DNA from: a virus
Length of the DNA stretch: 26,359 bases
Reading direction: 5' to 3' (one strand)
IMG/VR virus record: IMGVR_UViG_3300024520_000428
Location: 1 to 26,359 of that record
Shown: positions 2,186 through 23,491 of the stretch, piece by piece
How the letters are laid out: each line of letters starts with the position of its first letter
How positions within the stretch are numbered: position 1 is the first letter of the stretch
The notes under the pieces: model-generated
The model's input: only the letters and a program-made list of their open reading frames with translations
The model's database searches: none
What the model was told of the DNA's origin: nothing
Made by a program: the position numbers and the translations under genes

Positions 2186-3708
2186 TATTGAATAGTCCCT
2201 TCTAAGGCTTTTCTTTCAAGTTCTTCAAGTCTGGTTTCATCTTCTTTAGAAAAACTTGTTTCGGTTTCCACTGTTTCTTTTTTAATATCGTCATCACCGA
2301 CTATATTCTTTCGCGCGTTGCTTGCTGTCTTTTGATACTTCTCAAACCAATCCTCATCACCCTTAGATAGCTCTGTGCCAAATATACCAAAGTCTTCTAT
2401 ATGCTGATCTATTTTTGCAAGAGCAACAATGCGCCCTTTTTCAGAAGTTAAATTTTTAGTATCTAATATTAACTTTTCAAATACTTTCCATTCTCCTGCG
2501 CTAATTGCTGCCCCTGAATCTTTACGGCCTAATCTATTTTTTAGATAAGACATTGCACTTTCAACTTCTGGATTGGTAAAACCACCAATAAGAGGCAGCC
2601 CTCTTTCAAATACCCCAACCTTATTTTCTTTCAAAAGTTTTCTTAGTTGCTTAAATCTAACTAAAGCCGCCCCTGTTTCTGTTATGCCTGTTACAATTGG
2701 GACAGAGACTTTCTTCTGACTTGGGTCTTTTGCTTTTGCCTCTGCTAAATCTTTTAAATACTGGTTTTTTATTGCAGTATCTTCTCTATCAAATTCTCTT
2801 TTTAATCGAGACTCTTCTACTTTTGCATCAGCAAGAAGCTTGGCAGCTTCAGTCTTGTCACCTTTCTCTTCCAGCCGTATACGCTCTTTCTCTTCCCCGG
2901 CTGCAATGGATGCTTTGCCGGATTCAAAATCGTCAATTATTTTTTGGTTGTTAGCCGCTTGATTTTTAAATGCTGGATTGTCCGCAGCTTGATCAAAAAT
3001 AACCTTTAATTTTCTGGCTGTTTGTACTTCTTCAGGTTCTTGTTCTGGCTCTACCTTTGAAAGTTCTCCAGCCGTATTAGGCCTAAATACCGATGTTGTT
3101 GGCGCTTCTGCCGCTTGTTGTCCTGGCTTCAATACTCCATCTGCCGCGATTTCGTCAGGTGTTGGAATTTCAGGAACTTCAACCTCTTTTGATGCGCCGG
3201 CCATTATTTCAGCGATGATTGCTTTCGCGTCTTCCGGCATTGAGTTTCTTATTTGCTCACCACGAGACGAATCTTCGAGCGCTCCAATCTCTTCCAAAAC
3301 AGCTCTGGAACCTTCAGGAGTTTTGGTTTTTTCTATCAAGTCCTCATCGTCAATAGCATCAATAATCATGGTATTTTTTGCGTCTGACTTATCAGCAAAA
3401 TCAGCCTCAAACTCTGCGTCTTCATCACTAAAACCAAACTTTGTTTTGTATATTTCTGCAATCTGTCGTTTAGTTTCTGCGGTAGCTTCTGACTGTGCTT
3501 GATCAGCAGCAAGTGTTGACTCTGCGCCTTTTGTTCTTGCGGTCTGTTCTCTGAGTCGCAGATCTTCGAAAGGCTTTCGTCTTTCTCGCTCCTCTTTCTT
3601 TTCAAAGAAAGAACCCAAACCCGTTGCAGCCTGACTAACACCACCCAAAACACCAGATGCAATAGATAACCCAGCGGTTGAACGCCCTCCTAAATTCCTA
3701 ACTGTCAT
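2185..3708 (-). CDS. Putative internal virion protein, coiled-coil rich
   Basis: The product has 507 residues. The N-terminus is Gly/Ala/Ser-rich and mildly hydrophobic (GLSIASGVLGGVSQAATGLG, about residues 13-32). A long highly charged helical region follows (EKKEERERRK onward) and Ala/Glu/Lys coiled coil runs through about residues 230-330. The C-terminus is acidic. No catalytic motif was seen. The composition, with a possible membrane-active N-terminus and a helical body, is like podoviral ejection proteins, and the gene sits between two others of that kind. The stop and the next start overlap by one base at 2185. Confidence 0.5.
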   Translation of the reverse strand: MTVRNLGGRSTAGLSIASGVLGGVSQAATGLGSFFEKKEERERRKPFEDLRLREQTARTKGAESTLAADQAQSEATAETKRQIAEIYKTKFGFSDEDAEFEADFADKSDAKNTMIIDAIDDEDLIEKTKTPEGSRAVLEEIGALEDSSRGEQIRNSMPEDAKAIIAEIMAGASKEVEVPEIPTPDEIAADGVLKPGQQAAEAPTTSVFRPNTAGELSKVEPEQEPEEVQTARKLKVIFDQAADNPAFKNQAANNQKIIDDFESGKASIAAGEEKERIRLEEKGDKTEAAKLLADAKVEESRLKREFDREDTAIKNQYLKDLAEAKAKDPSQKKVSVPIVTGITETGAALVRFKQLRKLLKENKVGVFERGLPLIGGFTNPEVESAMSYLKNRLGRKDSGAAISAGEWKVFEKLILDTKNLTSEKGRIVALAKIDQHIEDFGIFGTELSKGDEDWFEKYQKTASNARKNIVGDDDIKKETVETETSFSKEDETRLEELERKALEGTIQ

Positions 3709-7075: not shown

Positions 7076-8056
7076 TTAATTATCCTCTAATATAAGATCA
7101 AAACCCGCTGAAACATCCATATCATTCTGACTTGAAATCACTTGCAATTTTAATATTCCCGGCCCTGTAAATTTATTGTAAGGATTGAAAGGGTGCGGTG
7201 ATCCATCACTTGTTCCGGTTGATAGTTTTGCAGTTGTATGTTTTATTAAAAAAGTTGTAATCTCTGTTTGTGGCTCTGGATTGTATAGCATGTCACAGTC
7301 TACTGCTATAGTTCCACCGCCTGACTTAAGAATACTATAATAAAACTGTGTCATGTATGCAGTTTGTGTTGATGGTATCCCATAGATTGCCATTTTGGTT
7401 TGACCTTCTAACGGGTTAAATTGTGCCGTCACTGTTGCGTCTGTTGCTGCCGTTGCCTTGACATATCCGACATTTGGCCCCGCTGTGCCTTTTGTTAAAA
7501 CTTTCATTCTATGTACAATAACATAACTATTTACAGTATTTGGCCCCGTTATACCATCCATATTTACAACTTCAGAAGTTTCCTTAGTGTCCCAATCGAC
7601 CAGCCCATAAACTTGTATTGTTCTGGCTCCTGTACCTGTCACGCTATCATTTGTTGACGTTGATGTGATTGCATGTATTCGGGCTTGAGTTGGTGCAATC
7701 CAAATATCTATATTATCGGTACTATTCGCACCGTCCCATACATCGGTTTTTGTGTTTAAATCTGCGTTTGTTGTTCTGCCAAATTTCTTATCACAATAAG
7801 TATTTGGTATTCTTCCCGCTGCAATTTCTAACTTATAATCTATAGCATAAGTTCTTACAGTATCCATCACTATGACTTGTGCAGTGTCAGCGATTTTAAC
7901 AAAAGACGTGTCACCGTTGGAAGTAACATACAAAGCGCTGTCACTCGTAACCTTTGCAGGGGTTCCGGTTATCTGATCAACTATTGTAACCTCTGCAAAA
8001 TCAGAGGCTATAATTATTATAGGCAATAGTAATATTAAAATTAAACGGTGTACCAA
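7076..8056 (-). CDS. Particle-surface protein with Sec signal peptide
   Basis: The 326-residue product begins with a hydrophobic segment (about residues 3-17, LILILLLPIIIIAS) and possible signal peptidase sites after AS or DFA. From about residue 88 it has a beta-rich region with FGRTTNADLNTKTDVWDG, then TSTNDSVTGTGARTIQVYGL and a T-S-E-V-V strand. This resembles a beta module I associate with phage structural proteins in which D-V-W-D-G is followed by an A-R-T-x-x-V-x-G-L strand. The gene lies next to the tail fibre, so a decoration or tail appendage role fits. The signal peptide is odd for a virion protein. Its start overlaps the upstream gene by 16 nt. Confidence 0.55.
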   Translation of the reverse strand: MVHRLILILLLPIIIIASDFAEVTIVDQITGTPAKVTSDSALYVTSNGDTSFVKIADTAQVIVMDTVRTYAIDYKLEIAAGRIPNTYCDKKFGRTTNADLNTKTDVWDGANSTDNIDIWIAPTQARIHAITSTSTNDSVTGTGARTIQVYGLVDWDTKETSEVVNMDGITGPNTVNSYVIVHRMKVLTKGTAGPNVGYVKATAATDATVTAQFNPLEGQTKMAIYGIPSTQTAYMTQFYYSILKSGGGTIAVDCDMLYNPEPQTEITTFLIKHTTAKLSTGTSDGSPHPFNPYNKFTGPGILKLQVISSQNDMDVSAGFDLILEDN

Positions 8057-8358
8057 TTTAATCCATCCGTTCTAATTGTTGGCGAACTTCCTACAGATAC
8101 TTTTTGTGTATCTTCATTTTTAATCTGTTGGCCTAATTTAGCTGTTAATGTTACTCTATTTGCAACACCATCAAAACTTCTTACCTCGTCAGTTCTTGGA
8201 AAGCTGAATTGTGTATTTTCCGAACCTTCACAGCTTGGTAAGTCTACATTAAAAGGGCCGTTTGTGGCGTCAAGCTCTACTAATATATGATAACCGCTTT
8301 TGTAGGTTCCTATAAGAGTGTTTCTGTAAGTGTTTAGTTTTATTGTTTGTGTTTTCAT
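8041..8358 (-). CDS. Small beta-rich particle-associated protein
   Basis: The product has 105 residues with no signal peptide and no membrane segment. It is rich in short beta strands (for example GYHILVELDAT, GPFNVDLPS and VANRVTLTAKLG). The strand-turn pattern with N-x-V-D-L-P resembles small phage domains that cap fibres, but no family could be named with certainty. It sits between the tail fibre and the 326-residue secreted protein, overlapping the latter by 16 nt, so coordinated translation is likely. Confidence 0.5.
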   Translation of the reverse strand: MKTQTIKLNTYRNTLIGTYKSGYHILVELDATNGPFNVDLPSCEGSENTQFSFPRTDEVRSFDGVANRVTLTAKLGQQIKNEDTQKVSVGSSPTIRTDGLNWYTV

Positions 8359-8360
8359 AT

Positions 8361-9785
8361 TTATCTTATTCTGTATGTTACTTGCAAGCTGTGACCTGTG
8401 CCTTTGCTGCCTGATGCTGTAAAAGTTCCGACTGTTCCTGTTGGGCCAGAATATAAATACATCGTTCCAGTTGCTTCTATTTGTATTTGTCCAAATACAG
8501 CTACTGTATTGTCAAAAACTACAATGTTAAATCTGTCTGTCGGTGCAGTGGTTTTTTGCAATTTCGCAGGAAGTCCAGTCAAAGAACATGATGTTGTATT
8601 ACTTGTACCTGATACAATTGGGATTTGCAATGTTACAACATTGCCAATCTTTGTATAAAAACATGTTCCCGTGGGAGAAGTCGTGCATCCTGTTAAAGTT
8701 GCAGTAAAACTTCCCGTATCATTAATAATAATAGAATCACATTCAATAGTCGCTGAAAAGGTAGAATCAAAAGTAACATCAGAAGTTGTCAAAACGTTTT
8801 GATCCATATCGTATAATTCATTAACACCTTGACCTGTGTTAATTGTAGCAAATACCACGGCATCAGTTGTCTCTATGTCCTGATTCATCGCGTATACTTC
8901 ATTGTTTCCTTGTCCTGTGTTTATTGTGTTAGTGTGTGATTGGCTTGAAAAAACAGTATCCCTTGCCCTTATTGATCCTGCAACTACCAGTTTTTTATCT
9001 GGGGTTGTGGTGTCTACGCCCATAAAACCAGAGCTTAATATTTTTAAATTATTCGCAGCTCCATTGTATATGTTAAAATTAGAACCACCAGCCATTGAGA
9101 AAGAATTTTCAAAAGGTTTCGATGAATGGGTATTTATGAAAGAACTTATTGTTAAACCGTTATTTGTAGAGGATAAAGTCAATGCAGCCTCTCCACTTGT
9201 CCCGGTGCTCATGTTTGTAATTTGCGCCCTCTCTTGACCGTCCGTTGACTTGGATAGTACCATAAGGCTTGCGGGTGTTCGTGTTCCAATCCCAACCCGC
9301 CCGACACTATCAATAAATACCACACTATCATGAGCAGATAAAAAAGTCAAACCGCTTACACTATTCGCTTTTGTAGTGTCTGAATTATGTCTTTGTGATT
9401 TTAAATATTTGCTGTAAGTTGTATCAGCGTTTAGTATTGAATCTATACTGGCCTTTTGAGATTCCAATAATGTATAATATGCCGTGTCTCCTGTTAAAGT
9501 GTCAATTTCTGACTTGCTTGAAAACATTGTATCGGTTGTTAAAGTGTCAATATCTCCACGCTGTATCTTTGCTGTATCACTTGTTATTGTATCAATGCTT
9601 TGGGCCGCTCTCATTTTGTTCACAGTATCAACGACATCATTTACCCTTGCATATACCGTATCGTAATTAGCGTTAACCTCTGAAGACCTCGCAGGGGTTG
9701 AAGGTGAAAATATAAATGGTTTTGTGATATCATCTAAAGAGTAAATTGATATTGCGAAAAGTAGTATAAAAAGTATGTTTTTCAT
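8361..9785 (-). CDS. Tail fibre protein with Sec signal peptide
   Basis: The product has 474 residues. Residues 1-16 form a classical signal (MKNILFILLFAISIYS). Four repeats of the type I-D-T-(L/I)-T-x-D-T follow (Ile at 64, 79, 94 and 114). Next comes VGRVGIGTRTP (161-171), the V-G-I-G-T-x-x-P motif common in fibre shafts, with a second form near 255-261. Two copies of a 29-residue unit, T-I-N-T-G-Q-G through M-x-Q-x-(I/V)-x-T-T-D-V, cover about 287-344. The C-terminal part (about 355-474) has the FTATLTGCTTSPTGTCFYTK and GNVVTLQIP pattern seen in receptor-binding knobs. It overlaps the nozzle gene by 4 nt. Fibre identity is well supported; the signal peptide is the unexpected part. Confidence 0.8.
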   Translation of the reverse strand: MKNILFILLFAISIYSLDDITKPFIFSPSTPARSSEVNANYDTVYARVNDVVDTVNKMRAAQSIDTITSDTAKIQRGDIDTLTTDTMFSSKSEIDTLTGDTAYYTLLESQKASIDSILNADTTYSKYLKSQRHNSDTTKANSVSGLTFLSAHDSVVFIDSVGRVGIGTRTPASLMVLSKSTDGQERAQITNMSTGTSGEAALTLSSTNNGLTISSFINTHSSKPFENSFSMAGGSNFNIYNGAANNLKILSSGFMGVDTTTPDKKLVVAGSIRARDTVFSSQSHTNTINTGQGNNEVYAMNQDIETTDAVVFATINTGQGVNELYDMDQNVLTTSDVTFDSTFSATIECDSIIINDTGSFTATLTGCTTSPTGTCFYTKIGNVVTLQIPIVSGTSNTTSCSLTGLPAKLQKTTAPTDRFNIVVFDNTVAVFGQIQIEATGTMYLYSGPTGTVGTFTASGSKGTGHSLQVTYRIR

Positions 9786-11725
9786 ATTCCGTTCCCTGTC
9801 TGTAATTTAACTAATACATTTAATTCTGACATATCAAAATTTATATCGTTAGCCGTCTGAGATAATTTTATATTCCAAGAGTAACCGTGAACGCCTTGAT
9901 CGCCTTTAAACTCGTATTGTTGTAAACTTTCGGCGCTCCACGAATCCACATCCCATGTAAAATCCCAGTTTGTTTGTCCTGTGCTTGCAGCGTCTGTTTC
10001 CTGTGATATTGTGTTCCCTGGATTATCAACTATTGTAACTAAAATAGTCATACCTGATTTGGCCTGAAATAATACCCGCATATTTTCAATAGTTGAATCA
10101 GTAAACATGTTTTCTCTTATTGTCTTACTTAATACATACATTAGCATATTAGTTGCAGTTGTCAAATATGTTCCAGCGTCCTTATATAATCCAATCTCTG
10201 TTGTAGCTGTTGAAAGCTCTTTATATATCGTGCTTGACGCTGTGAAAGATTGCCCCATGAATAACGTATTTGAAGAATCTTTTACTATATAATTGCACCC
10301 TCTCCCTAATATTTCCCAGGGTGTTTTATTGTTGTCTACATCATAAAAAAGAGTTCTGCTTAAATTTAATGCGAAAGTCCTATTATTATTTGTGCTGTTT
10401 ACGTTCGTGTCCATAACGGATATCAAATATTCTATCCGGTTATTTCTCCTATAGACTATTCCACACGGTCTATGGTCGCTGTCATCGTCAGCCCATACCC
10501 TATCTAAAACAGGCCGTATATTGTAACCATAGTCAAATGGTTCAAAGGCCATAGTATCGGCTCTAAACACGCCGATTCTGTCCTCTGTCATACCAATACG
10601 GTTGCTGCTCCACTTTCCAACTGTGCGCATGTATTCAAAAGAAGTCTGCCTCTCGTAATGTTCCACTTTTGCGTTTATATCAGCGAAAGGCTGAAACATT
10701 ACCCCATCTGATTTAGTGTTAATACAAAGGTGTCCACCGCAATCAAACAAGCCAGTAATTTTATGGTGATATCTAATAAAATTATTTAAAGGCCATACCT
10801 CTAAATCATATTTATTAAAACCCTTTTCAGAAAAATAGAGAATATTGTTTTTGTATCCAAATAGTCTACGATCAAAGAAAAATAGAAACTCTAAATTAGC
10901 CGGTATTAGGTCGTTGAATGCTGCTTTATTGCCATAAGTAAGCGTTAAGCTGTTAGGAGTCGCACTGGTTATTGTGAAAGATGTTGTTGTATTGTCTCCA
11001 GTTTCATCCCATAAATAATAAGTTGAAAGCCCCGCGTAGGTCATCCATATTACCTTATTACCAACTTGGGCATCTGCACTATTCGCAAAGCTTGCAATAT
11101 CTATACTTCCACTGCCACCACCGCCTGAAATAGTAACATTTGCAATTAAAGACACTCCGTTTGCATCTTTACCGCCCGTTGAGTATAAAACATCCGCCCC
11201 GCTGACCTGTCTTGCATAACTTGCATATAATTTATAAACACCATCCGGAAGACTTCCCCCTGTGGTTTGTGGTGTGGCTGTTACACCTGTGGGTGCTGCA
11301 ATTCCAATCCTGTACGCTGTGGTTCCTTCAATTTTACAACCTCCAGCACCATTAATACAGTAGAAACTACCAAATGCAGAGTCGGCCCACGCTTCCCCTT
11401 GTCCGGTCATATCGTATTTTTCAGTTAAACCGCCCGTAGACTTGTTAACTTCATACAACTTACCGCCATGTACTTCATATAAGTGCTGTGAACCGTCTAT
11501 CTCTGCATGGTGAAACTCTCCCCTTAACAAATCGTCAATGGCATTCTGAGCCGTTAAATTTATGGCTCCGGGCCACCTCTTAAAACCATTCTTTGGAAAA
11601 ATAGCGTTCAGACAATCACTTGATTGATTTCCACGTATAGAGATAGCAGGATCATTTAAATTAACCCCTCCTGTGTAATCAATAAAGTCTATAACTTTTT
11701 CTTTATCTGATGCTTTTAAAGACAT
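9782..11725 (-). CDS. Tail nozzle / tail tubular protein B-like
   Basis: The 647-residue product begins with the pattern I-D-F-x-x-Y-T-G-G-V-N-x-x-D-P, then N-Q-S-x-D-C-L-N-A and K-R-W-P-G. This is the typical opening of podoviral nozzle or tail-stabilisation proteins with a beta-propeller body (T7 gp12 and P22 gp10 type). Many short beta strands with aromatic residues follow, for example HLYEVHGGKLYEVN and FYCINGAGGC. It lies between the adaptor and the tail fibre, as in T7-like and P22-like phages. It has no signal peptide. Start and stop overlap neighbours by 1-4 nt. Confidence 0.7.
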   Translation of the reverse strand: MSLKASDKEKVIDFIDYTGGVNLNDPAISIRGNQSSDCLNAIFPKNGFKRWPGAINLTAQNAIDDLLRGEFHHAEIDGSQHLYEVHGGKLYEVNKSTGGLTEKYDMTGQGEAWADSAFGSFYCINGAGGCKIEGTTAYRIGIAAPTGVTATPQTTGGSLPDGVYKLYASYARQVSGADVLYSTGGKDANGVSLIANVTISGGGGSGSIDIASFANSADAQVGNKVIWMTYAGLSTYYLWDETGDNTTTSFTITSATPNSLTLTYGNKAAFNDLIPANLEFLFFFDRRLFGYKNNILYFSEKGFNKYDLEVWPLNNFIRYHHKITGLFDCGGHLCINTKSDGVMFQPFADINAKVEHYERQTSFEYMRTVGKWSSNRIGMTEDRIGVFRADTMAFEPFDYGYNIRPVLDRVWADDDSDHRPCGIVYRRNNRIEYLISVMDTNVNSTNNNRTFALNLSRTLFYDVDNNKTPWEILGRGCNYIVKDSSNTLFMGQSFTASSTIYKELSTATTEIGLYKDAGTYLTTATNMLMYVLSKTIRENMFTDSTIENMRVLFQAKSGMTILVTIVDNPGNTISQETDAASTGQTNWDFTWDVDSWSAESLQQYEFKGDQGVHGYSWNIKLSQTANDINFDMSELNVLVKLQTGNGI

Positions 11726-12444
11726 TATCTATTAAACCTCAAAGTTTTGTTTGAATCTGTGTTATTTCTTCTGCCAGGGTTGCCACCAGCTAAAGAAAAT
11801 GTCTGCGGTGTTACTTTACTACCATAATGATCTCTCATAACTGGCCTTGTATTAGCGTTAACCCATTGAGTAGTGTTTTTATAGTCGTTATACGCATCAT
11901 TGTACTCTTGTACGAATAATTGGTGTTGTTTTGGGTTTCCTTTACTGGATGTATTGATCTTTTGAGCCTCAAGTATAACCAGATTGGCAGGAAAATAACT
12001 GTATTCTGTGCCCGATCCTGTAAACTTTTCCAGCGTTTGAACATATCTCATTTTTAAACTAATTACACTTGGATTATTAAACGTCATTACGCGGCTTTGT
12101 CCGGCTGCTTTGGTAAACGCATTCGTCATCTTATAACCAAACGTTTCATCGTTGCCCTCTTCATACCATTGAGTTGGTACATTATCGCTATAATCTGCAA
12201 TATCAACAATACGCCCAAAGTCTGATAAGTTTGTATCAATTGCATAAGCTCCATTAGAATCAAGAGACAATGAGACAAGCAACACGAGATTAGACCACGC
12301 CTTTTTATTCCAAAGGTTCTGTGTTGCCCGATTAGCTAACGACAATTGCAAATCCGATACCGATTTACCCGACCGGCTGTTTATAGTCCAATCGGATAAA
12401 ATCGGCTGTATATCGTCTGCATATGTACTTTTAAAATATGACAC
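11725..12444 (-). CDS. Head-to-tail adaptor (gatekeeper-like)
   Basis: The product has 239 residues, with an N-terminal helical part (ILSDWTINSRSGKSVSDLQL, about residues 14-33) that resembles the start of podoviral adaptor proteins. A mixed alpha/beta middle and a helix at about 160-190 follow. The last 30 residues are Gly, Asn and Arg-rich and probably disordered. It lies directly before the nozzle gene with a 1-nt overlap, the normal place of the T7 gp11-type tail tubular protein A. No diagnostic motif was seen, so the call rests on size, order and fold impression. Confidence 0.55.
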   Translation of the reverse strand: MSYFKSTYADDIQPILSDWTINSRSGKSVSDLQLSLANRATQNLWNKKAWSNLVLLVSLSLDSNGAYAIDTNLSDFGRIVDIADYSDNVPTQWYEEGNDETFGYKMTNAFTKAAGQSRVMTFNNPSVISLKMRYVQTLEKFTGSGTEYSYFPANLVILEAQKINTSSKGNPKQHQLFVQEYNDAYNDYKNTTQWVNANTRPVMRDHYGSKVTPQTFSLAGGNPGRRNNTDSNKTLRFNR

Positions 12445-12986
12445 TATTTACCCTCTATAGCTGCGAGTTGTGCTTTAAGATCCGCAACTTCATCAATAAG
12501 GCCTTTTTTCTCTTGCTTCTCTTTGTAGGCTGCAAAGTTGCTTGTTTTCTCGTGTGTTTCTTCATTCCACAGGTTGACATCTTCGCGCTCATTGGCAAGA
12601 TATCGCAATCTTTTGATCAGTTCCTGCTCCTGAAGATCTTCTGTATTAGGATCAACTTCAATAAAGCACAAATAACCCTTCGACATCTTATCATTAAGAG
12701 TGGTAAACGGTTTTGATTTTTGAATAATTATAGGATCACCGGCCGCGTTGTACCGTTCAATATTCTTGTTGTCTCTTTTTATAAGAGGCTCTCCGGTTGT
12801 CCTATTAACTGCGTTAAAAAAAACTTTATCAGTTTTATTGTAAGAATAGTACCGTTCTTTAGGAAGTTTATTTTTCTTTACTTCCTTAGTTTCTTTTACT
12901 TCCTTAGACATAGTATTTTCCCTTTTCTGAGCACGTTTTGCACGTTCTCTTTTATTTCGTTTATCTTTTTTTTCTCGATCTGTCAT
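12444..12986 (-). CDS. Basic/acidic virion-block protein of unknown function
   Basis: The product has 180 residues. Residues 1-45 are extremely Lys/Arg/Glu-rich (REKKDKRNKRERAKRAQKRE) and the central part (46-115) has short strands with many aromatic residues. A C-terminal coiled coil follows (about 120-180, ending in VADLKAQLAAIEGK). The start at 12986 is favoured because AAGGA lies 6 nt upstream; an internal ATG at 12911 has a weaker site. The gene lies between the decoration-like protein and the adaptor. The charged N-terminus could contact DNA or capsid, but I do not recognise a family. Confidence 0.5.
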   Translation of the reverse strand: MTDREKKDKRNKRERAKRAQKRENTMSKEVKETKEVKKNKLPKERYYSYNKTDKVFFNAVNRTTGEPLIKRDNKNIERYNAAGDPIIIQKSKPFTTLNDKMSKGYLCFIEVDPNTEDLQEQELIKRLRYLANEREDVNLWNEETHEKTSNFAAYKEKQEKKGLIDEVADLKAQLAAIEGK

Positions 12987-12995
12987 AATTTCCTT

Positions 12996-13022
12996 AAAAG
13001 TAGGGGCTTTTTACACCCCTAC
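12996..13022 (-). terminator. Hairpin with short U-run before the 12986 gene
   Basis: A perfect 7-bp stem, GTAGGGG (13000-13006) with CCCCTAC (13016-13022), has a 9-nt loop and is followed on the minus strand by TTTT. It lies between the decoration-like gene and the SD of the 12986 gene. The U-run is short, so it is probably a partial terminator or an mRNA-stability hairpin that lowers expression of the tail genes relative to the capsid genes. Confidence 0.5.
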
Positions 13023-13030
13023 CAAGTTAT

Positions 13031-13564
13031 CTATTTCTTTGTATAGTCCTGGTTCTTTCTAAAATACAACCACTGATAATCTGGAACAATTACAGCCGAT
13101 GCAGTAAAGTTATTAAACCTTAACCATATATAATGAGCTGCAACAGTAGACACATCTAAAGTGGTTTGTAATGGCCCTAATAATGGCATAATTGTATCAC
13201 CAAGGGCTTTCCACCGGGAAGACGTATCAAGAATACTATTAGTAGCTGCAAGTTGGTAAAACACGGCTAAGCTATCACCTGCGGCCAAATTTGTTCCAAC
13301 AAGATTCAATGATTTGTGATTTGGTTGATTCGTTCCACCAAAATTTAGAGGAAAAGGCCCAACAATCAAAAAGTCATCAACTGCAATAGTATCTCCTGTA
13401 TCCTCTGTATTATCAAAAACTGTGTGCCTGATAATATCAGAGCCTGGAGTAGACTGCTTATCTATATTTGCATTTTCAACAGTTGCTGCTATTACTGCGG
13501 TTGAATCTGCTGCATACAGAAAAGAAACGAACAACACAATAAATAATATTAGAAACTTTTTCAT
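13031..13564 (-). CDS. Secreted decoration-like protein next to capsid gene
   Basis: The 177-residue product has a classical Sec signal (MKKFLILFIVLFVSFLYA, cleavage likely after A18). The mature part is polar, Thr/Asp/Ala-rich and beta-predicted (for example KSLNLVGTNLAAGDSLAVFY and WLRFNNFTASAVIV). No Cys is present in the mature chain. It is immediately downstream of the major capsid gene, where head decoration or fibre genes usually lie. Its strand pattern loosely resembles the 191-residue secreted protein at 18209-18784, so the two could be related. The signal peptide does not fit cytoplasmic capsid assembly. Confidence 0.55.
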   Translation of the reverse strand: MKKFLILFIVLFVSFLYAADSTAVIAATVENANIDKQSTPGSDIIRHTVFDNTEDTGDTIAVDDFLIVGPFPLNFGGTNQPNHKSLNLVGTNLAAGDSLAVFYQLAATNSILDTSSRWKALGDTIMPLLGPLQTTLDVSTVAAHYIWLRFNNFTASAVIVPDYQWLYFRKNQDYTKK

Positions 13565-13578
13565 GATATGCCCCTTTC

Positions 13579-14808
13579 TTAGAATAGGTCAGTTACCCAA
13601 GTTAAAGTATTACCAGCGTCTTTAGTCTCAATACCGTGGAATGCATAGATTTCATCCTGAGTGAAGAAAGCTTTATTATCCTGAATACCGTTATTTGGCT
13701 GTAAATCATGGTCTTGCTGATATACATATCCAAGGTTCCTTGGAGCCATAACAAGCATTTTGTCCTTCAATGCTTCCTGATTAAAAGCTTTGTGCTTAAC
13801 TAAAGAAATTTTTGGCCCAGCTGTTACAATATCATAAGCTGTAATACCAAATTTATCAAGCTCTCCGGATTTATCAAGAGAAAGTTTCGCGTCCATCTCA
13901 TCAACCAATCTACCATGATACTCGTTTGAACAAAGAGCAATATAAGTATCGTCATCATTCATCTGATCACCCATTGAAAGTGGTAAATTCTGACGTATCC
14001 AAGAAAGATCACCAGCGTTATTAGCATTTACGCTATTTGCAGCAAGTGATACAAGCCCATCATTAGTCATAAACTCACCAGTAAAACCAGTTTGAATACC
14101 TGTAGTAGTATTCTTTGTGGCTTTATCTGCGGTCATTTCAGAAAAAATCCAGTTACGTTCCATAGCTTCCATTGATTCCCAAAGTAGATGTTGCTTCTCT
14201 CTGGAAAGTCTTGGGCCACCTGCATGCTGTTTGATTTTCTCTTTTAACCAAGAAATTGAAACAGACCAGCGGGAAATCTGAAGAGTGTTGTAATTCTGAT
14301 CGTCAGTACCATTAATTACGTGAGAAGTATCACTCACTTCATCAGTCGCAGTTGCAAGAATCATCAACACATCACCAGCCTGACAACTAAAAGTAGTTGC
14401 ACCAACTGAAGACCCTTTAATAGTCAGAGTCGTAATAGTTTCAATACGTGCCCTTGTGTTATTGCGTGGATTGTATAAAAGTGCTTCGATAGGCACTCCA
14501 GCCACAGAAGAAACAGCAAAACCACTTGATGTAATCTCTGTTCCACTTGTTACCGTTACAGTATCGGCACGTGGTGAGCGTGTATACATCTCAAAACGGG
14601 GATTGCCTGTTTTAAGTGAACGTTTGCCAATTAATGCAGGCGATTTTTCTCGCTTGCCGTCTTTATATAGTGCATTTTCAATGAGCACAGAAATCTTTGC
14701 AGATCCATACCCTAAATACCGGATCTCATCCGATACTTCCCGCATATCCAGTTGACTTATACTTAAATCATCCTGTACAATTGGGGTTGCTACTGGTGTG
14801 TTAGCCAT
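13579..14808 (-). CDS. Major capsid protein (HK97-like, probable)
   Basis: The product has 409 residues. It has an N-terminal arm, a beta-rich region at about 70-170 and an E-x-x-x-L-L-W-E-S-M-E-A-M-E-R-N helix near residues 205-222 that is like the spine helix of HK97-fold proteins. Downstream are T-G-I-Q-T-G-F-T-G-E-F and a C-terminal A-domain-like region with AYDIVTAGPKISLVKHKAF. The pattern is similar to capsid proteins grouped in DUF5309. It directly follows the scaffold-like gene with a 14-nt gap, and AAAGGA lies 6 nt before the ATG, a strong site that suits the most abundant virion protein. Confidence 0.7.
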   Translation of the reverse strand: MANTPVATPIVQDDLSISQLDMREVSDEIRYLGYGSAKISVLIENALYKDGKREKSPALIGKRSLKTGNPRFEMYTRSPRADTVTVTSGTEITSSGFAVSSVAGVPIEALLYNPRNNTRARIETITTLTIKGSSVGATTFSCQAGDVLMILATATDEVSDTSHVINGTDDQNYNTLQISRWSVSISWLKEKIKQHAGGPRLSREKQHLLWESMEAMERNWIFSEMTADKATKNTTTGIQTGFTGEFMTNDGLVSLAANSVNANNAGDLSWIRQNLPLSMGDQMNDDDTYIALCSNEYHGRLVDEMDAKLSLDKSGELDKFGITAYDIVTAGPKISLVKHKAFNQEALKDKMLVMAPRNLGYVYQQDHDLQPNNGIQDNKAFFTQDEIYAFHGIETKDAGNTLTWVTDLF

Positions 14809-14822
14809 AATTTATCCTTTAT

Positions 14823-15848
14823 TTATCGGCTCATGAATGTAGACATAGCCTGAGACATTTCATTATTATTTGTTCGTACGTTATTTGGTTGCGGTTTCCC
14901 GCCTGTTGCGTTTCTTTGAGACAGTCCAGCGGCATAACCTTTATCGTAAGCACCCTTCATCATCCCGGGTACTTGTGGGACAATCCAAGCATTTTCTCCA
15001 GCTTCGGCAATTGCTCTCATACCTTCACCGTTCGCCTGAAAATTACGTGTCCAATTATTTAATGCTGCTTTCTGATCTTCCTTGCTCAAAGAACTATCAG
15101 CGTTATTACCAAGATTGTAAATAGTTTTTAACAACTTACCGCCAAGGGCAGGATCTAGCGCAAATTTATTCAACACATCATCTGCACTTACTCCAGGCAT
15201 CAAGTCCTTATATCGTGACGTTAATTTATTATTAACAGACACAATATTATTATCAATCTTCTCATTGCTGATATTTTTATACTCGCTTCTTATATCATTT
15301 TCAAACTTCTTTCGCTCATTATATTTCTCGGTGGAACTGTCGCGATTAGAGGAAAGCTCTGATAATGAATTTTGAAGACGTTCAAGCGTTTGTTCTGCGG
15401 TATAGCCTTGATCGATATCTTGTTTTAATAGCTCTGGTAAGTCCTTTACCAAATCATTAATTGAATCCTGGTATACAACATCTGGCGTTTTTTCGAGTTC
15501 TTTTTCGGTTGATGCTTCTACAGGTTCAAACTTGATATTGTCATAAAAATTCTCTTCACCGGCCATGAATCCAAGAATCTTTTCTGAGTCAAAACTACCA
15601 TCCTCTGTATTAAATGCAGTTTTTGAAGCCTCGTTAAATGCTTCAGGAGTTATTGCTTCCTTTGGCTCCTCTTTCGGCTCCTCCTTTGCTGCTGGTTTAT
15701 CTTCTATTTTTTCCTCTGGAGTGATCGGCTCCGTTGGTTTATCTGCAAAAATACTTTCTATTGTAGGCTCGTTTGTTGGCTCTGCGACCGCTGTGTCGTT
15801 CTCTGCCACTTCTGGTATCTCTGTTGCTGATGCTTCGTTAAATTCCAT
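14823..15848 (-). CDS. Scaffold-like protein
   Basis: The 341-residue product is very acidic in its first 130 residues (repeats of P-E-E-K, K-E-E-P-K-E-E-P and T-E-P). A helical region with possible coiled coil follows at about 135-250, and the C-terminus is Asn, Gln and Met-rich. Acidic, helical and Pro/Glu-rich proteins directly before the capsid gene are typical scaffolds. No protease motif was seen, so it is probably the scaffold and not a fused maturation protease. Its start overlaps the stop of the upstream gene by one base (TAATG). Confidence 0.65.
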   Translation of the reverse strand: MEFNEASATEIPEVAENDTAVAEPTNEPTIESIFADKPTEPITPEEKIEDKPAAKEEPKEEPKEAITPEAFNEASKTAFNTEDGSFDSEKILGFMAGEENFYDNIKFEPVEASTEKELEKTPDVVYQDSINDLVKDLPELLKQDIDQGYTAEQTLERLQNSLSELSSNRDSSTEKYNERKKFENDIRSEYKNISNEKIDNNIVSVNNKLTSRYKDLMPGVSADDVLNKFALDPALGGKLLKTIYNLGNNADSSLSKEDQKAALNNWTRNFQANGEGMRAIAEAGENAWIVPQVPGMMKGAYDKGYAAGLSQRNATGGKPQPNNVRTNNNEMSQAMSTFMSR

Positions 15849-16057
15849 TATTTACCCACCTTTCCACCCATAAATGTATTTAAATCGTTGTCTCTGCCCT
15901 TCATCTTGCTTAATATTTCCTTACCTTTTTTTATAGTTGCTGATAAGTCATCAAGATTCTTTGCAGACAGTTTCACGCTCTCCATTATGGTAGGCTTATT
16001 CATTGAAACCTGTATTGTATTATCATCGTTAAACTCTAAACATGCGTGTAAACTCAT
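15848..16057 (-). CDS. Small protein between portal and scaffold
   Basis: The product has 69 residues. A short beta start (ACLEFNDDNTIQVSM) is followed by a Lys-rich amphipathic helix (SVKLSAKNLDDLSATIKKGKEILSKM, split here as about residues 28-53) and a Gly/Lys tail. I do not recognise a family. It overlaps both neighbours by 1-4 nt, so it is clearly part of the coupled morphogenesis operon. A role in capsid assembly is only suggested by position. Confidence 0.55.
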   Translation of the reverse strand: MSLHACLEFNDDNTIQVSMNKPTIMESVKLSAKNLDDLSATIKKGKEILSKMKGRDNDLNTFMGGKVGK

Positions 16058-16437
16058 TTTTTATCCTTCTTTGAATCAATCATTAACTTATAAGCTTGGT
16101 CAAACTTTTCTAAATCACTTAATAGTATTTCAACCATTGCAAGTTGTGCCGATCCGGTTAATACTTTCTTATCGTATCCACCAAGCATAGAGGTTGTTAT
16201 CCCTTTTATGTGGCTATCTTTGTATCCTTGCAACCAAGACAAAACGCTTTCACTTTTAATAAATGGCTGCATACCATGTATAAAGGCCTCTGAATTGATA
16301 GGAATAGGGTTGAATCTCACATACTCTTTTTTTGTGGCTCGCTCTGTATCTTCAAGCAATTTTTTAGACTTTGCTATATACTGTTGCTTCTCTATTTCAA
16401 ATTCTCCTTTAAATAGCCATTTAATAAACGTTCTCAT
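16054..16437 (-). CDS. Helical protein downstream of portal
   Basis: The 127-residue product is mainly helical, with a Lys/Glu-rich N-terminus (about residues 10-38) and a Leu-rich C-terminal helix (about 98-125). It carries no cysteines, no signal peptide and no motif I recognise. The ATG overlaps the portal stop (ATGA) and its own stop overlaps the next start, so it is translated together with portal. It could be a small head assembly protein. Function unknown. Confidence 0.55.
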   Translation of the reverse strand: MRTFIKWLFKGEFEIEKQQYIAKSKKLLEDTERATKKEYVRFNPIPINSEAFIHGMQPFIKSESVLSWLQGYKDSHIKGITTSMLGGYDKKVLTGSAQLAMVEILLSDLEKFDQAYKLMIDSKKDKK

Positions 16438-18209
16438 AATATCGACCCTCCGGGTTGAGGCGGTGCGCCTGGAATACCTGAAGGTAATTGTGGTTGTCCT
16501 GGTTGCTGTGGTTCTTCTGCTAAAAATACCTGTTCAGAGTCTAATACTTTGCTCAATTTAGTTGCTTTCTCAGTTAAATACTTCCAATTAGGATTTACAG
16601 GAACACCGCTATTAACAAGATTGTTTAACCATGTAATATGGTTCTTTATGCTAACGTCATCACCTAAGTAACTTCTTTGTAGTGCAGTGTCAACCTTTGC
16701 TGCGTAGTCACCAAGTAATTGATTTTTATGTATCTCTATTACTTCCTGCTTGTTCTCCTGTGGAATGATTAACGGGTGAGTATTCGCCACAAACTGACCA
16801 ATTCCATTCATTATTTTCTCACCAACTCTTGTAAGATCCATTGAATATTGTTCTAAAATGTCTGCGTCCTGATTGGCTCCGAGATCATCAATTATCTTTG
16901 CTGCTGTCGCTGTTTTATTAGACGGGCCACCCTGTGACGGGTTACGATTAAGATCCGGCTCTGTCGTTGTTCTTTGATGATTTTCCAATACGATAGCGTG
17001 AGCCTGTGCAACTTCACTGCCTGCGGTGTCTTGTGGTTGCGATTGGTATAATACATTGTTTAAATTGACATCTTTTGCAACATTTACCGGGATTCTACCA
17101 TTAAAAGGAGTCCTATCAAACGAATCAGGATCAATAGCATTTGAATTATAAAAGATTCTCCTATCCATAGACTGTATAGCATTTTCAACAGACATTCCAT
17201 GCAATAGGTTGAGCGTGTTTTCATTCTGTATGCTGTAACTTGCAGGAGTATCACCCCAGAAGTATTCTATTCTATGCTCGCATGCCAAGACTGTGTGTTG
17301 TTTCATCCCCATATCATACGGATTATCCTGAAATGAAACTATGATATCTCCGACCATTTCAAAATTATAATATGTCGCATCGTCAGTATTATCTGTAATA
17401 AAAATCTGTGCCTGCCCTCTTGTAACATCCATAGGGATATAACGACCATAATCTTTCATCGACTCCCGGCCCTGTGCGTCTACATATTGTTTATCCTGGA
17501 AGAAATGTTTTTGCTTAATACTCTTAATTACCTTTTCAACATTTTCTTTTATATATTTCTCTGGATTGGCTTTATATCTGGCTTCAAGCTCTGACATTTT
17601 CCAGCGCTCAATATGCCAGTTTATATCTGATTCCTCAGCGCTTATAATATCCGGATTCTGGCCGTAGTTTCTCACATCTATATCATAGGTTCTGATCAGA
17701 TCGTCACGTTTTACTATACCGTATTCTCTTTTAACATTGCCAAGAGCGTCAATTGTGGTTTTATATCCCTCTTCGCTCACATTGTCATATTCAGTATAGG
17801 CAACACCAGTGCCCCACCGAATCATTTTATTAATGTTAGGGATTAAAAAGCTGTGTCTAAACTTGGTTAATTGGTTGTTTCTCTCTACCGCCTGTTGCAT
17901 AGCCTCTGCACTTGCTGCGGGAGTCATGCCGATAGGTGACATTGTAAAGACAGGATCTTGTCTGTAATTGGAGGTAAACAGAGCCCTTTTACTTAACATA
18001 ATTTGTTTAACTAAAGCGTAGCACAGTTGCCCCTGATACGAATTGCCCGAATCACCAGGAACTTCCATATTCCAAGATGAATCAAGACGCTCAATGTGTT
18101 GTAATAGAAACTTCTTACACTTTGAGCGTTCATAAGCAACTTTTCTGTCAGTAATATACTGAGAGATTAGCTTTTCATGTTTTTTAAAGCCTTTAATTAA
18201 ATCAATCAT
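16434..18209 (-). CDS. Portal protein
   Basis: The 591-residue length fits podoviral portals. The N-terminal helical part has E-R-S-K-C-K-K-F and W-N-M-E-V-P-G-D. Then follow L-V-K-Q-I-M-L-S-K-R-A-L-F (about 66-78), G-T-G-V-A-Y-T-E-Y near 133-141 (a common portal pattern of G-x-G-x-x-x-x-x-Y), and an H-R-I-E-Y-F-W-G strand near 308-315. A long helix follows with S-V-E-N-A-I-Q-S-M-D-R-R, as in portal stem regions. The C-terminal 35 residues are Pro/Gln/Gly-rich. It is in the expected place after the terminase and before the scaffold and capsid genes. The start overlaps the stop of the secreted protein upstream by one base. Confidence 0.75.
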   Translation of the reverse strand: MIDLIKGFKKHEKLISQYITDRKVAYERSKCKKFLLQHIERLDSSWNMEVPGDSGNSYQGQLCYALVKQIMLSKRALFTSNYRQDPVFTMSPIGMTPAASAEAMQQAVERNNQLTKFRHSFLIPNINKMIRWGTGVAYTEYDNVSEEGYKTTIDALGNVKREYGIVKRDDLIRTYDIDVRNYGQNPDIISAEESDINWHIERWKMSELEARYKANPEKYIKENVEKVIKSIKQKHFFQDKQYVDAQGRESMKDYGRYIPMDVTRGQAQIFITDNTDDATYYNFEMVGDIIVSFQDNPYDMGMKQHTVLACEHRIEYFWGDTPASYSIQNENTLNLLHGMSVENAIQSMDRRIFYNSNAIDPDSFDRTPFNGRIPVNVAKDVNLNNVLYQSQPQDTAGSEVAQAHAIVLENHQRTTTEPDLNRNPSQGGPSNKTATAAKIIDDLGANQDADILEQYSMDLTRVGEKIMNGIGQFVANTHPLIIPQENKQEVIEIHKNQLLGDYAAKVDTALQRSYLGDDVSIKNHITWLNNLVNSGVPVNPNWKYLTEKATKLSKVLDSEQVFLAEEPQQPGQPQLPSGIPGAPPQPGGSIL

Positions 18210-18784
18210 TATCTTTTAGGCCGTCTCCGTTGTACAAATAGCATCCTGATATCTAAAAAGCTGCTCTTATCATTGTTTGCAATTCCTTTGACCCATCCAC
18301 GATACAATACATCATAGTTAGGTGCAAAATTACAAGTTTGGTAAGCGTATCCGGTTACGTTCAATGTATCGGTTAATTTCTTCACATTGGTATACGAGTC
18401 ATCTCCATCTATTTCAACAAAATTACTATCGGCTTTAGTATATGAACTATCCAAACGGCTGAGAGTATCACACAGATACTTAATAGGGTTCCAAGCTGTA
18501 TCATTGCTTCCTGCTGAATCCTTGGTAAAATGGCCTGTCTGTATTCCCCATATAAATTCTGTACTATCTGCACTAAAACCAGCGCTTGAAGTATCATTTA
18601 CATAAACGTCAATTCTTAAATTCTCATAGCCTGACAGGTTAAACACTTCAGTATATTTCATTGAATCGGCTTTAAATCCTGTTATAGTATCCAGAAACTC
18701 AGTACCAGTAGACCAAGTTGTCTTCATTGGATTTCTGCCAAAACAAAAAGATACTAACAATAATACAAACATTAACTTTTTCAT
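18209..18784 (-). CDS. Secreted protein between terminase and portal
   Basis: The product has 191 residues with a signal peptide (MKKLMFVLLLVSFCFG, cleavage likely after G16; the Cys is not in a good lipobox). The mature chain is beta-rich with many Asp, Ser, Thr and Tyr (YENLRIDVYVND, about 53-64; FIWGIQTGHF) and ends in RRRPKR. The fold impression, a strand sandwich with an N-L-R-I-D-V segment, fits a decoration-type protein. It lies inside the packaging operon and overlaps both neighbours by 1-4 nt. What a secreted protein does here is unknown. Confidence 0.5.
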   Translation of the reverse strand: MKKLMFVLLLVSFCFGRNPMKTTWSTGTEFLDTITGFKADSMKYTEVFNLSGYENLRIDVYVNDTSSAGFSADSTEFIWGIQTGHFTKDSAGSNDTAWNPIKYLCDTLSRLDSSYTKADSNFVEIDGDDSYTNVKKLTDTLNVTGYAYQTCNFAPNYDVLYRGWVKGIANNDKSSFLDIRMLFVQRRRPKR

Positions 18785-19026
18785 TTCTTTACCCTCTTTT
18801 TGAAAATAAAAGCGTAAGCTGTTACAGCGCTTACAAACTCTATATTGTATTGAACCTCAGCCGCTAATATGTAATCAAGCGTTGTTTGTGCGTCCTTTGT
18901 TCCTTTTTCCTCTATTAATACAGTTATGTATCGTGCATTCTCTGCTATTATTTCGTATTTAATATCTTTAAACTCTTCAGCAAAAGACATTGATATAATT
19001 ATTAATAGTGCTAACAAAACTTTCAT
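18781..19026 (-). CDS. Small secreted protein after large terminase
   Basis: The 81-residue product has a clear Sec signal (MKVLLALLIIISMSFA, cleavage likely after A16). The mature part of about 65 residues has a short acidic start, strands ARYITVLIEEK and AAEVQYNIEFVSAVTAYAFIF, and ends in KKRVKK. Another reading of the C-terminal hydrophobic stretch is a second membrane segment. It starts 3 nt after the TerL stop and overlaps the next gene by 4 nt. No family recognised. Confidence 0.5.
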   Translation of the reverse strand: MKVLLALLIIISMSFAEEFKDIKYEIIAENARYITVLIEEKGTKDAQTTLDYILAAEVQYNIEFVSAVTAYAFIFKKRVKK

Positions 19027-19028
19027 AA

Positions 19029-20495
19029 CTACCTCATACTTATTGTTGATTTTTTCCCCATGAAAGCGGCTCTCATATCTGTTACCGCGTCACTCTGAGG
19101 CTTTTTATATTTAGATTCTTTTTTCTTATATTTATGTGCGTGTTGTTGCTCTGTTGCCATTGCAATCCTAACCGCATCCATTGGGTCTTTGCGCTTTTCA
19201 TCTTCACGCTCTTTGCCGTCTCTATCAAAGCGGTGGAATTTAAAAGCGTCTATAACATTGTGACAGTGTGGAGACACATATAGTCTTGGCTCGTTAAATG
19301 CTGTGATAGGCAATGATGTATCATAAGTGAGTAATTCTTTTATTCTTTCCCGCTGTGAATCAATCATGTATTCAGGTGGACACTCAAAACTTAACCCACC
19401 ATTGGCAGGATCAGCCATTTCTATTATTATTCCTCTTGTGTTGCTGGTTGTTGAACCTGTGCCAGCTCCTTTTGCAAACCTCGTGTCAATACCCCTCGCT
19501 GTGAGTCTAATAGCAGGAATCGTCTTGCTGATTGTATTGTCCAAGAGTTTATATAACGTGGCTCTTTGTTTGAGGGTGAGCGCACACTTTTTTTCTTTTC
19601 GCAATTCCCAGTAGTATTTTCCGTTAAAGTCATTACTGTCAGTCCTTGGATATTCATTGTAGAAATAATAATTAAATGTACCGTCTCCCCTTGGTTCTCT
19701 GCCAAGCCATACACAAAATGGATAGTAAACAGTGTGAGGATCTTGTCCCATGAAGAAATTGGCAACAGGTTCTATTCTGTTAAGATCAACGTCACGAATA
19801 TGGACATCAGGATCAAACATCGGATATACTATACCGCCTGTTTTCCTTGGTTGGCCTAACCATATATGGTTGTATTCGTCTTCATCTTCTCGTCTGCACT
19901 TCTCTGCTTTTCTTTTTATATCTTCAGGGCACCAAGGATTGTCTAAGTAAGTCAAATAAATATGCGCAACATCGGGATCATTACTCTCTACAAACTTTTT
20001 ATATACAAAATCGTCAGCGTATTCAGGATTAAACTCTATCCAAAACTCAGGCTCTCTATCCATCTCAGGGGTTTTTCTTATTGTTGGATCTAAATATTTC
20101 CAAGATTCTGCCGACAAGTTATGCCCTTCAAATATCCAGCATATCATTGTTCCCTGTAAACCCTTCACTTCCGTTTCGTTGTCATGAAGATGTTTATATA
20201 TTAATCTACTACCATTAGGCGTATAGTCTATTGAGTTATTTGTTACATGGAATAAATGTTCTATGCCGTGAAACTTAATACGCTCTTTCAACAAGGCGTG
20301 TACCGAATCAGCTATAGTAGTTTTAAATTCTCTACACACAGCGACTTTTATACAAGCTTGAATCATTCTACATAAACACATATCAGCATAAGCATATGAC
20401 TTCTGGCCAGCACGCCCACCCTCAGCAATTAAATACATTTTTATCTGTTCAAATAACCACATCATTTTATCTGATATTTGAGGCTTCAGAATCAT
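19029..20495 (-). CDS. terL: Terminase large subunit (TerL)
   Basis: The product has 488 residues. It has a Walker A-like GGRAGQKS at residues 26-33 (usual form GGRGSGKS) and a Walker B-like MICWIFEGHN at 117-126, where Phe122 precedes Glu123 in place of the normal acidic residue. The coupling region FWIEFNPEYADDFVYKKF is at 151-168, followed by TYLDNPWCPEDI. Nuclease motifs are G-Q-D-P-H-T (250-255), R-G-I-D-T-R-F (334-340) and D-P-M-D-A-V (437-442), which fit the Terminase_3 and Terminase_3C families. The ATPase motifs are slightly unusual, but Lys32, Ser33 and Glu123 remain. It overlaps TerS by 4 nt (ATGA). Confidence 0.9.
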   Translation of the reverse strand: MILKPQISDKMMWLFEQIKMYLIAEGGRAGQKSYAYADMCLCRMIQACIKVAVCREFKTTIADSVHALLKERIKFHGIEHLFHVTNNSIDYTPNGSRLIYKHLHDNETEVKGLQGTMICWIFEGHNLSAESWKYLDPTIRKTPEMDREPEFWIEFNPEYADDFVYKKFVESNDPDVAHIYLTYLDNPWCPEDIKRKAEKCRREDEDEYNHIWLGQPRKTGGIVYPMFDPDVHIRDVDLNRIEPVANFFMGQDPHTVYYPFCVWLGREPRGDGTFNYYFYNEYPRTDSNDFNGKYYWELRKEKKCALTLKQRATLYKLLDNTISKTIPAIRLTARGIDTRFAKGAGTGSTTSNTRGIIIEMADPANGGLSFECPPEYMIDSQRERIKELLTYDTSLPITAFNEPRLYVSPHCHNVIDAFKFHRFDRDGKEREDEKRKDPMDAVRIAMATEQQHAHKYKKKESKYKKPQSDAVTDMRAAFMGKKSTISMR

Positions 20496-20941
20496 TTTTT
20501 AACGTCTCCTTTTCCTACAACCTCAATTTCTATTTTGGTTACAACATCCAAACTGCCAGTGTGTTCAATCTTGTCGCCATACTTCTTAGGCTTCAGCTTT
20601 GAAGCAATCCATTTACGTGTTTCTATTCTCAACCTTGATCTATTTATATGTTCAGCGTTTAGCTTCTCGTAGTCATCCTCTCCAACCTTATCAAGCATAA
20701 AATCATTTGTCGAATCATCAGCAATACTCAGCATTTCGTCTGCTAAATAATCAGCCTGTTCGTCTTTCGCGCGTGTGTATTGCTGCAACAACTCTTCATC
20801 TGTATTTAATCTAGAGTATATAGTTCTGAAAGGAATATCTAAACCTACACAAATCTTTTGTAGTGATTTACTACTTGTGGCTATCTCGCTAAAGATAGAA
20901 TCATATGTTTCTTGGGGAATTTCTTTTAATGGTCTTGCCAT
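20492..20941 (-). CDS. terS: Terminase small subunit (TerS)
   Basis: The product has 149 residues from the ATG at 20941; a GTG two codons upstream is possible but not needed. The N-terminal helix-turn-helix (about residues 20-45, LQKICVGLDIPFRTIYSRL) would bind the packaging site. The C-terminal part has the conserved R-x-R-I-E-T-R-K-W-I-A-S-K-L-K-P-K-K-Y-G segment of small terminases. It overlaps TerL by 4 nt. No SD sequence precedes the start. The promoter at 20948-20976 predicts transcription to begin at the ATG itself, so the mRNA may be leaderless. Confidence 0.85.
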   Translation of the reverse strand: MARPLKEIPQETYDSIFSEIATSSKSLQKICVGLDIPFRTIYSRLNTDEELLQQYTRAKDEQADYLADEMLSIADDSTNDFMLDKVGEDDYEKLNAEHINRSRLRIETRKWIASKLKPKKYGDKIEHTGSLDVVTKIEIEVVGKGDVKK

Positions 20942-20947
20942 ACCCAC

Positions 20948-22945: not shown

Positions 22946-23138
22946 TTTCTTCCTTTGATTTTGCAAGGTGAGTTATCCCCGGCCCCGCCTTTGGTAAATA
23001 CTTTGATAATCTATATAACAAGTACCATGTATTAAAACAATCTGAGTCGTGATAGTGACAAAAATATTGGTTATCAGATTCTATATGGATACACATCTTC
23101 CCTTCTAAATCCTTACCACATACTTTACATTGTTTCAT
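22935..23138 (-). CDS. Small zinc-finger-like protein, 67 residues
   Basis: From the ATG at 23138 the product has C4-K-V-C7, C16, then C27-H-Y-H-D-S-D-C34, a pattern fit to bind one or two zinc ions. The helix NTWYLLYRLSKYL follows. The stop of the upstream lipoprotein and this ATG share one base (TAATG), which decides the start over an in-frame GTG three codons upstream. Function unknown. Confidence 0.6.
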   Translation of the reverse strand: MKQCKVCGKDLEGKMCIHIESDNQYFCHYHDSDCFNTWYLLYRLSKYLPKAGPGITHLAKSKEENEN

Positions 23139-23491
23139 TAATACCACACCTTCAAATTAGTAAACAATATAGTATCCGGTATACACTCAGATATTTTGTT
23201 ATAGTTCTTATCTGGATAGCTTGCCTCTGTTTGATAACCGTCTTTTAAAGTATATCGAATCTTTACACGGTCATCTGTCTTGTATACCCTTACTCCTAAA
23301 TGGTCGATTTTGTATGAATTATCTTTCTTTGCCCACTCAAACCATCCAGACCAATCAGCGACAATTTTGTCGTTGCATTCAAAGTTAATATCCATCTGGT
23401 CAGATTCTAAATGAATAAGCTTTGTATCTCCAAAATTTAACGGGTTACAACTTGCTATAGCTAATAGTGTGATGATAATTAAGTATTTCAT
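23138..23491 (-). CDS. Small lipoprotein
   Basis: The 117-residue product has a signal of MKYLIIITLLAIASC: the lipobox I-A-S-C with Cys15 is good. The mature domain of about 100 residues is beta-rich with several Asp and Lys and a W-S-G-W-F-E-W-A motif near residues 47-54. Phage lipoproteins of this size often act at the envelope, for example in superinfection exclusion; that is a possibility only. It is coupled to both neighbours through ATGA and TAATG. Confidence 0.6.
   Translation of the reverse strand: MKYLIIITLLAIASCNPLNFGDTKLIHLESDQMDINFECNDKIVADWSGWFEWAKKDNSYKIDHLGVRVYKTDDRVKIRYTLKDGYQTEASYPDKNYNKISECIPDTILFTNLKVWY

Follow-up and report, generated by a model that had tools for sequence, protein, structure and literature searches.

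Virion proteins that are made as pre-proteins are familiar from the filamentous phages, whose coat proteins pIII and pVIII are inserted into the membrane before assembly. These phages assemble at the membrane and are extruded without lysis. The virion proteins of tailed phages, on the other hand, are expected to remain in the cytoplasm. The phage described here resembles the filamentous phages in that several of its putative virion proteins appear to be made as pre-proteins, but it is a tailed phage with double-stranded DNA and with a terminase and a capsid of the tailed-phage type. Another point of comparison is Lom of phage lambda, a signal-bearing outer-membrane protein encoded between tail genes (PMC12309495). 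Lom, however, is expressed in the lysogen as a protein of the host outer membrane and has no sequence relation to a virion domain (PMC12309495). In the case of phage DGR target proteins the absence of signal peptides has been used to support a phage origin (PMC6199706). For rumen Bacteroides phages the genomes have been described as encoding one or two signal peptides each, with no assignment to virion genes in the accessible part of that report (PMC5723332). A search of the open papers, with most subscription papers outside its scope, yielded no report of Sec signals on fibre or decoration proteins of tailed phages.

The phage and its virion gene block

The window, i.e. the whole stretch of 26,359 nucleotides that was analysed (IMGVR_UViG_3300024520_000428), is a linear virus contig of 26.4 kb and is probably incomplete. 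Its virion genes form a block on the minus strand, and the five open reading frames named in the original prediction were all found there. The block begins with an Sf6-type small terminase subunit (20492-20947; Sf6_terminase, E = 2e-31), the large subunit (19029-20495; Terminase_3, E = 6.1e-34), two small genes, a gene of portal size (16434-18209) and two further small genes. These are followed by a scaffold-like gene (14823-15848; assigned from its position and a weak match to the head-morphogenesis family phrog_2468, E = 0.0016), the SU10-type major capsid gene (13579-14808; SU10_MCP, E = 7.5e-9), a small gene (13031-13564), the gene at 12444-12986 and a putative adaptor gene (11725-12444). 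The block ends with the tail hub or head closure gene (9782-11725; phrog_8040, head closure Hc3, E = 7.8e-8), a fibre-like gene (8361-9785), a small gene (8041-8358), the gene at 7076-8056 and four long ejection-like genes. The portal, adaptor and ejection roles were assigned by position. No signal was present on the two terminase subunits or on the portal-size, scaffold-like, capsid, adaptor and hub proteins.

The Sf6-type small terminase and the head-closure/hub gene are traits of Sf6/P22-type phages, and the subset of window genes that was scanned contained no tail-tube, sheath or tape-measure family, on a contig that is probably incomplete. The phage is probably a short-tailed phage of this type with a diderm host. 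Searches of IMG/VR with the large terminase subunit, the hub, the capsid and the products of 18209-18784 and 13031-13564 gave at most one distant match and no close relatives. Against GTDB contigs the portal-size protein likewise gave at most one distant match, and the phrog_8198 domain discussed below gave none.

Five genes with export signals

The products of 7076-8056, 8361-9785, 13031-13564, 18209-18784 and 18781-19026 each start with a basic n-region and a hydrophobic core of 11-15 residues, and in all of them a small residue lies close to where cleavage would be expected. The signal segments (a hyphen marks the putative cleavage point) comprise residues 1-16 of the 18781-19026 product (18979-19026; MKVLLALLIIISMSFA-EE), residues 1-16 of the 18209-18784 product (18737-18784; MKKLMFVLLLVSFCFG-RN), residues 1-18 of the 13031-13564 product (13511-13564; MKKFLILFIVLFVSFLYA-AD), residues 1-16 of the 8361-9785 product (9738-9785; MKNILFILLFAISIYS-LD) and residues 1-18 of the 7076-8056 product (8003-8056; MVHRLILILLLPIIIIAS-DF), all on the minus strand. 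A rule-based scorer, which does produce false positives (e.g. on genes of loci L062/L063 and of the Microcystis phage Mwe-Yong1), flagged all five and, outside the block, two lipoprotein-type genes (3-254 and 23138-23491). Related phage loci supplied 2,090 genes for comparison, and only nine of them (0.43%) reached the weakest of the five on an n-region/h-region criterion whose threshold was that weakest member. On this basis the chance of five of 19 window genes passing is P ~2e-8; no comparison locus had more than two passing genes. The prediction that five genes of the virion block carry Sec-type N-termini thus held for the n- and h-regions of every one of them. Sec-type export signals on these products are well supported, and as judged from their sequence it is very probable that all five function.

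The cleavage sites are less uniform. Alanine at position -1 occurs only in 18781-19026 (SFA-EE) and 13031-13564 (LYA-AD), so that the sites look canonical in two of the five and weaker in the other three. A cleavage matrix derived from 26 E. coli-type signal peptides gave a high score to 18781-19026 only and placed the other four in the top 4-19% of locus genes. The matrix performs poorly on signals rich in Ile and Phe and gives false positives; the implausible window gene 2185-3708 also scored highly.

Four of the five starts can be regarded as fixed because each combines an ATG codon with a Shine-Dalgarno-like sequence and close spacing of the genes. The starts of 18209-18784 and 8361-9785 overlap the stop codon of the upstream gene by 4 nt, 18781-19026 starts 2 nt past the terminase gene and 13031-13564 starts 14 nt past the capsid gene. 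The upstream stretches are of the GAGG/AAGGGG type, weaker in the case of 8361-9785. The TTG start of 7076-8056 is less certain than the others, but the alternative in-frame ATG at codon 64 lacks a Shine-Dalgarno sequence and would open a gap of 173 nt.

The five proteins are not detectably homologous to one another: the best E value was 0.35, or matches were limited to the signal segments. An argument from disulfide bonds was dropped. The mature proteins have even numbers of cysteines (2, 4, 0, 2 and 0), but the counts in signal-bearing relatives are mixed, and no conserved disulfide pattern was found.

The phrog_8198 protein

The original prediction had taken the fibre as the clearest case. 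No family could be detected for the fibre, however, and the clearest case is instead the 326-residue product of 7076-8056, in which the signal segment is followed by a linker of about 48 residues and a C-terminal phrog_8198 domain (residues 67-326, covering positions 32-262 of the 262 of the profile; E = 8.5e-21). The predicted structure (pLDDT 82) has a confident beta-rich domain, while residues 1-67 are of low confidence or disordered. Its closest predicted folds belong to proteins of uncultured Caudovirales (TM 0.6-0.7); matches in the PDB (TM ~0.2) are little informative. The gene sits between the fibre-like and hub genes on one side and the ejection-type genes on the other, and locus L012 repeats the order of hub-like gene, domain gene and long genes. 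Immediately upstream lies a small partner gene without a signal (8041-8358, minus strand). Such a gene is often found in phrog_8198 relatives, and small genes occupy the same position in the cyanophages S-SKS1 and S-SCSM1, where the alignment is weak (17-27%).

In S-SCSM1 the phrog_8198 homologue QFG06287.1 is a virion protein according to its GenBank annotation. For this phage 45 virion proteins have been identified by mass spectrometry in CsCl-purified particles (PMC9602691); the status of QFG06287.1 is taken here from the annotation. Other cyanophage homologues are annotated as tail fibres. By homology to the S-SCSM1 protein, the product of 7076-8056 is likely to be a component of the particle.

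The window protein and the phrog_8198 proteins of cyanophages and IMG/VR phages agree in the C-terminal domain and in the location of their genes in runs of head and tail genes. They differ in what precedes the domain. Most homologues have no convincing signal, and in those of cyanophages and of spring and lake phages the stretch that precedes the domain is mostly 8-25 residues long, reaching ~54 in a few. The relatives thus have a few tens of residues at most, or non-hydrophobic modules, where the window protein has a signal and a linker. The same conserved residues are retained in signal-bearing and signal-free copies. Modules of the non-signal kind precede the domain in L012, L099 and L118 (TREWFRFLEALY, WRDWLFYLYKQV and WIKWLNNLYEWV) and look like a shared virion-attachment motif.

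Recurrence of signals among relatives

The L-numbered loci are from uncultivated phages used for comparison. The phrog_8198 subfamily was gathered with the window protein and that of L012 as queries and then extended. A Sec-type signal precedes the domain in L096 (the same protein as in L097), L108, L125, L143, L161, L162, L168 and L176, so that nine of the 69 distinct members, the window counted, bear a signal. The L161 protein is equal in length to the window protein, 48% identical over the full length and built of the same signal, linker and domain. In general these relatives share only 40-50% identity with the window protein and have different signals and neighbours, and none of their loci has five such genes. 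The signals also differ from one relative to the next. The tree requires eight changes in the signal trait, at least four of them forced by the starred branches, with gains and losses not separable; a smaller and more careful tree required five changes, four of them forced. The signal-bearing copies remain within runs of head and tail genes and have starts that overlap or lie close to the preceding gene, as in L161, where the start overlaps the stop codon of the upstream virion gene.

In L143 and L176 two neighbouring genes, located downstream of a capsid-like gene, both carry signals. Synonymous sites between these loci are at or near saturation, while the site LYA-GQ of the domain gene is identical; the signal has been retained under selection in this pair. 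Mwe-Yong1 has a homologue of the first of the two genes immediately behind its capsid gene, without a convincing signal, which makes this a second accessory family with signal-bearing and signal-free forms. Further signal-bearing genes tended to occur in loci with a signal-bearing domain gene, but the tendency is no more than suggestive (P = 0.10 by locus and 0.056 by gene). The phrog_8198 domain family is a known one; its signal-bearing form appears to be new as far as the open literature shows.

The fibre-like protein, small orphans and signals on other virion-type genes

Classical fibre modules had been proposed for the C-terminal part of the 474-residue product of 8361-9785 (minus strand), but Pfam and PHROGs gave no match to a fibre family or a chaperone domain. 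A tblastn search gave a weak match to the Thermus phage YS40_Isch (E = 0.04). We call the protein fibre-like on account of its VGIGT and N-Q repeats and its position. The other three signal-bearing products are orphans encoded on the minus strand: 177 residues from 13031-13564 next to the capsid gene, 191 residues from 18209-18784 between the terminase and portal-size genes, and 81 residues from 18781-19026 next to the terminase gene. No relatives of the first two were found in IMG/VR. It is by their position that all three are placed in the virion. A single-sequence structure model of the 13031-13564 product was discarded (pLDDT 38).

Comparable genes occur in other loci. In L150 a gene at 7083-8165, between adaptor-like and hub-like genes, encodes a protein of fibre-type sequence that bears a signal and a Gp53-like_C domain (E = 4.5e-11); the window fibre similarly lies beside its hub. 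Against phage records the L150 fibre gave only a match to a repeat of 30 residues. L125 has a small signal-bearing protein between terminase-like and portal-size genes, as in the window, and L096 encodes a fibre of 756 residues with a match to phrog_9942 and a hydrophobic N-terminus of ~24 residues. Four consecutive signal-bearing genes were found in L124 (10796-15856). One encodes a fibre that contains VGIGT repeats and, near its end, six cysteines; another encodes a protein of the LamG lectin type. The remaining two products are rich in repeats, look beta-helical and share a C-terminal segment ending in SNGAK(L/F)KGLRTK. Elsewhere in L124 (5706-9237) two alternating gene pairs are inserted after the gene in the capsid position. 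The first gene of each pair starts with (M)K(K)xLI(S/I)RYGAYGD, and these are possibly genes for sugar or surface modification.

Proposed export and assembly at lysis, and alternative explanations

Within the virion block of the window signals were restricted to accessory genes: five of nine accessory genes had one and none of the 11 core genes (terminase, portal, scaffold, capsid, adaptor, hub and ejection genes). The Fisher test (P = 0.008) is indicative only, since the division was drawn after the signals were known and partly by position. Sec N-termini on genes of a virion block are, as had been pointed out, in conflict with ordinary cytoplasmic assembly. The explanation that we favour is that outer accessory proteins of the virion are routed through the Sec system of the host. 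The packaging motor, the head shell and the tail hub would be built in the cytoplasm as usual, whereas the fibre-like protein, the protein with the phrog_8198 domain and the small proteins on the capsid and portal sides would be synthesised as pre-proteins, pass through the inner membrane and fold in the periplasm. When lysis opens that membrane, they would bind to the particles. All the steps, from export and cleavage to folding in the periplasm and attachment, are inferred from sequence, and we give the mechanism as a whole a probability of roughly 45%. It would account for the restriction of signals to accessory genes, for the virion domain and for the retention of the signals.

A serious rival, although we consider it less probable, is that the exported proteins have their function outside the particle. 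They would be fibres, secreted or bound to the surface, or glycan-binding or depolymerising proteins that coat the infected cell, block receptors against superinfection, or clear the surroundings before release. Their genes would lie in the virion operon merely for the sake of late expression. Lom of lambda provides a precedent, the four-gene run of L124 with its LamG-type and repeat-rich proteins would suit extracellular action, and the three small proteins of the window lack relatives. What speaks for the particle is the virion annotation of the phrog_8198 protein in S-SCSM1, the identity of the conserved residues in copies with and without a signal, and the tight embedding of the signal-bearing copies among head and tail genes. 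Improbable, in our estimation, is a third explanation by which the signals are evolutionary baggage, N-terminal modules captured from secreted fibre-like proteins of the host and tolerated, with the proteins assembled in the cytoplasm or translated from a downstream start. Within the phrog_8198 family N-terminal modules are indeed highly exchangeable, and 7076-8056 combines a TTG start with an ATG just before its domain. That ATG, however, has the defects described above, there is little latitude in the other four starts, and the background rate comes nowhere near five signals in one block. In addition, signals appear repeatedly and were kept in L143 and L176 despite near-saturated synonymous divergence.

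Uncleaved hydrophobic ends could serve as anchors that hold the proteins at the inner membrane while particles are assembled, or that insert into a membrane on infection. The cleavage motifs are weak in three of the five by the E. coli-based matrix, and the hydrophobic stretch of the L096 fibre would be long enough to span a membrane. The cores in the window are followed by charged or polar sequence and, with 11-15 residues, fall short of the usual length of a membrane helix, which makes anchors less likely; two of the five have good AxA sites, and phrog_8198 homologues that start 8-20 residues before the domain need no anchor. We rate this the least probable of the explanations, slightly below evolutionary baggage. 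Of three options offered originally, attachment at lysis is favoured, secreted forms remain a serious contender and uncleaved anchors have lost ground. Export of genuine virion parts is preferred because the domain occurs with and without a signal, the signal has been gained or lost repeatedly, signals are confined to accessory genes and, in a cyanophage whose virion proteome was established by mass spectrometry, the protein with this domain carries a virion annotation.

With somewhat greater reserve, export with attachment at lysis might be extended to an assembly of tailed dsDNA phages in two compartments, in which cytoplasmic heads and hubs meet periplasmic receptor-binding or decoration proteins at lysis, and which would have arisen repeatedly by the grafting of Sec signals onto virion genes. 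If so, part of the assembly of a tailed phage would take place outside the cytoplasm and particles would be complete only at lysis. Exported fibres could be oxidised or modified outside the cytoplasm, and free ones could act on neighbouring cells too. A practical consequence would be that filtering of phage genes by signal peptides can throw out real virion proteins.

Other genes with membrane-related features

Of the lipoprotein-type genes that lie outside the block, the one at 3-254 is incomplete at the contig edge. Its signal ends in AMS-C, and the sequence YFSFDSYELSPEAKHIL is similar to a peptidoglycan-binding motif of the OmpA type, with no significant family match. The other (23138-23491) encodes 117 residues and has the site IAS-C. 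In L165 two nearby genes (17373-18815) encode signal-bearing proteins of ~185 residues with similar mature N-termini (TTPIIAGV and VTPIVSSI), which are possibly duplicates. Finally, an in-frame internal ATG in 24319-24789 of the window would give a protein starting with MKKFYLILILQFLLIAGLVYIMTTHYKEV, possibly a membrane protein of the spanin type.
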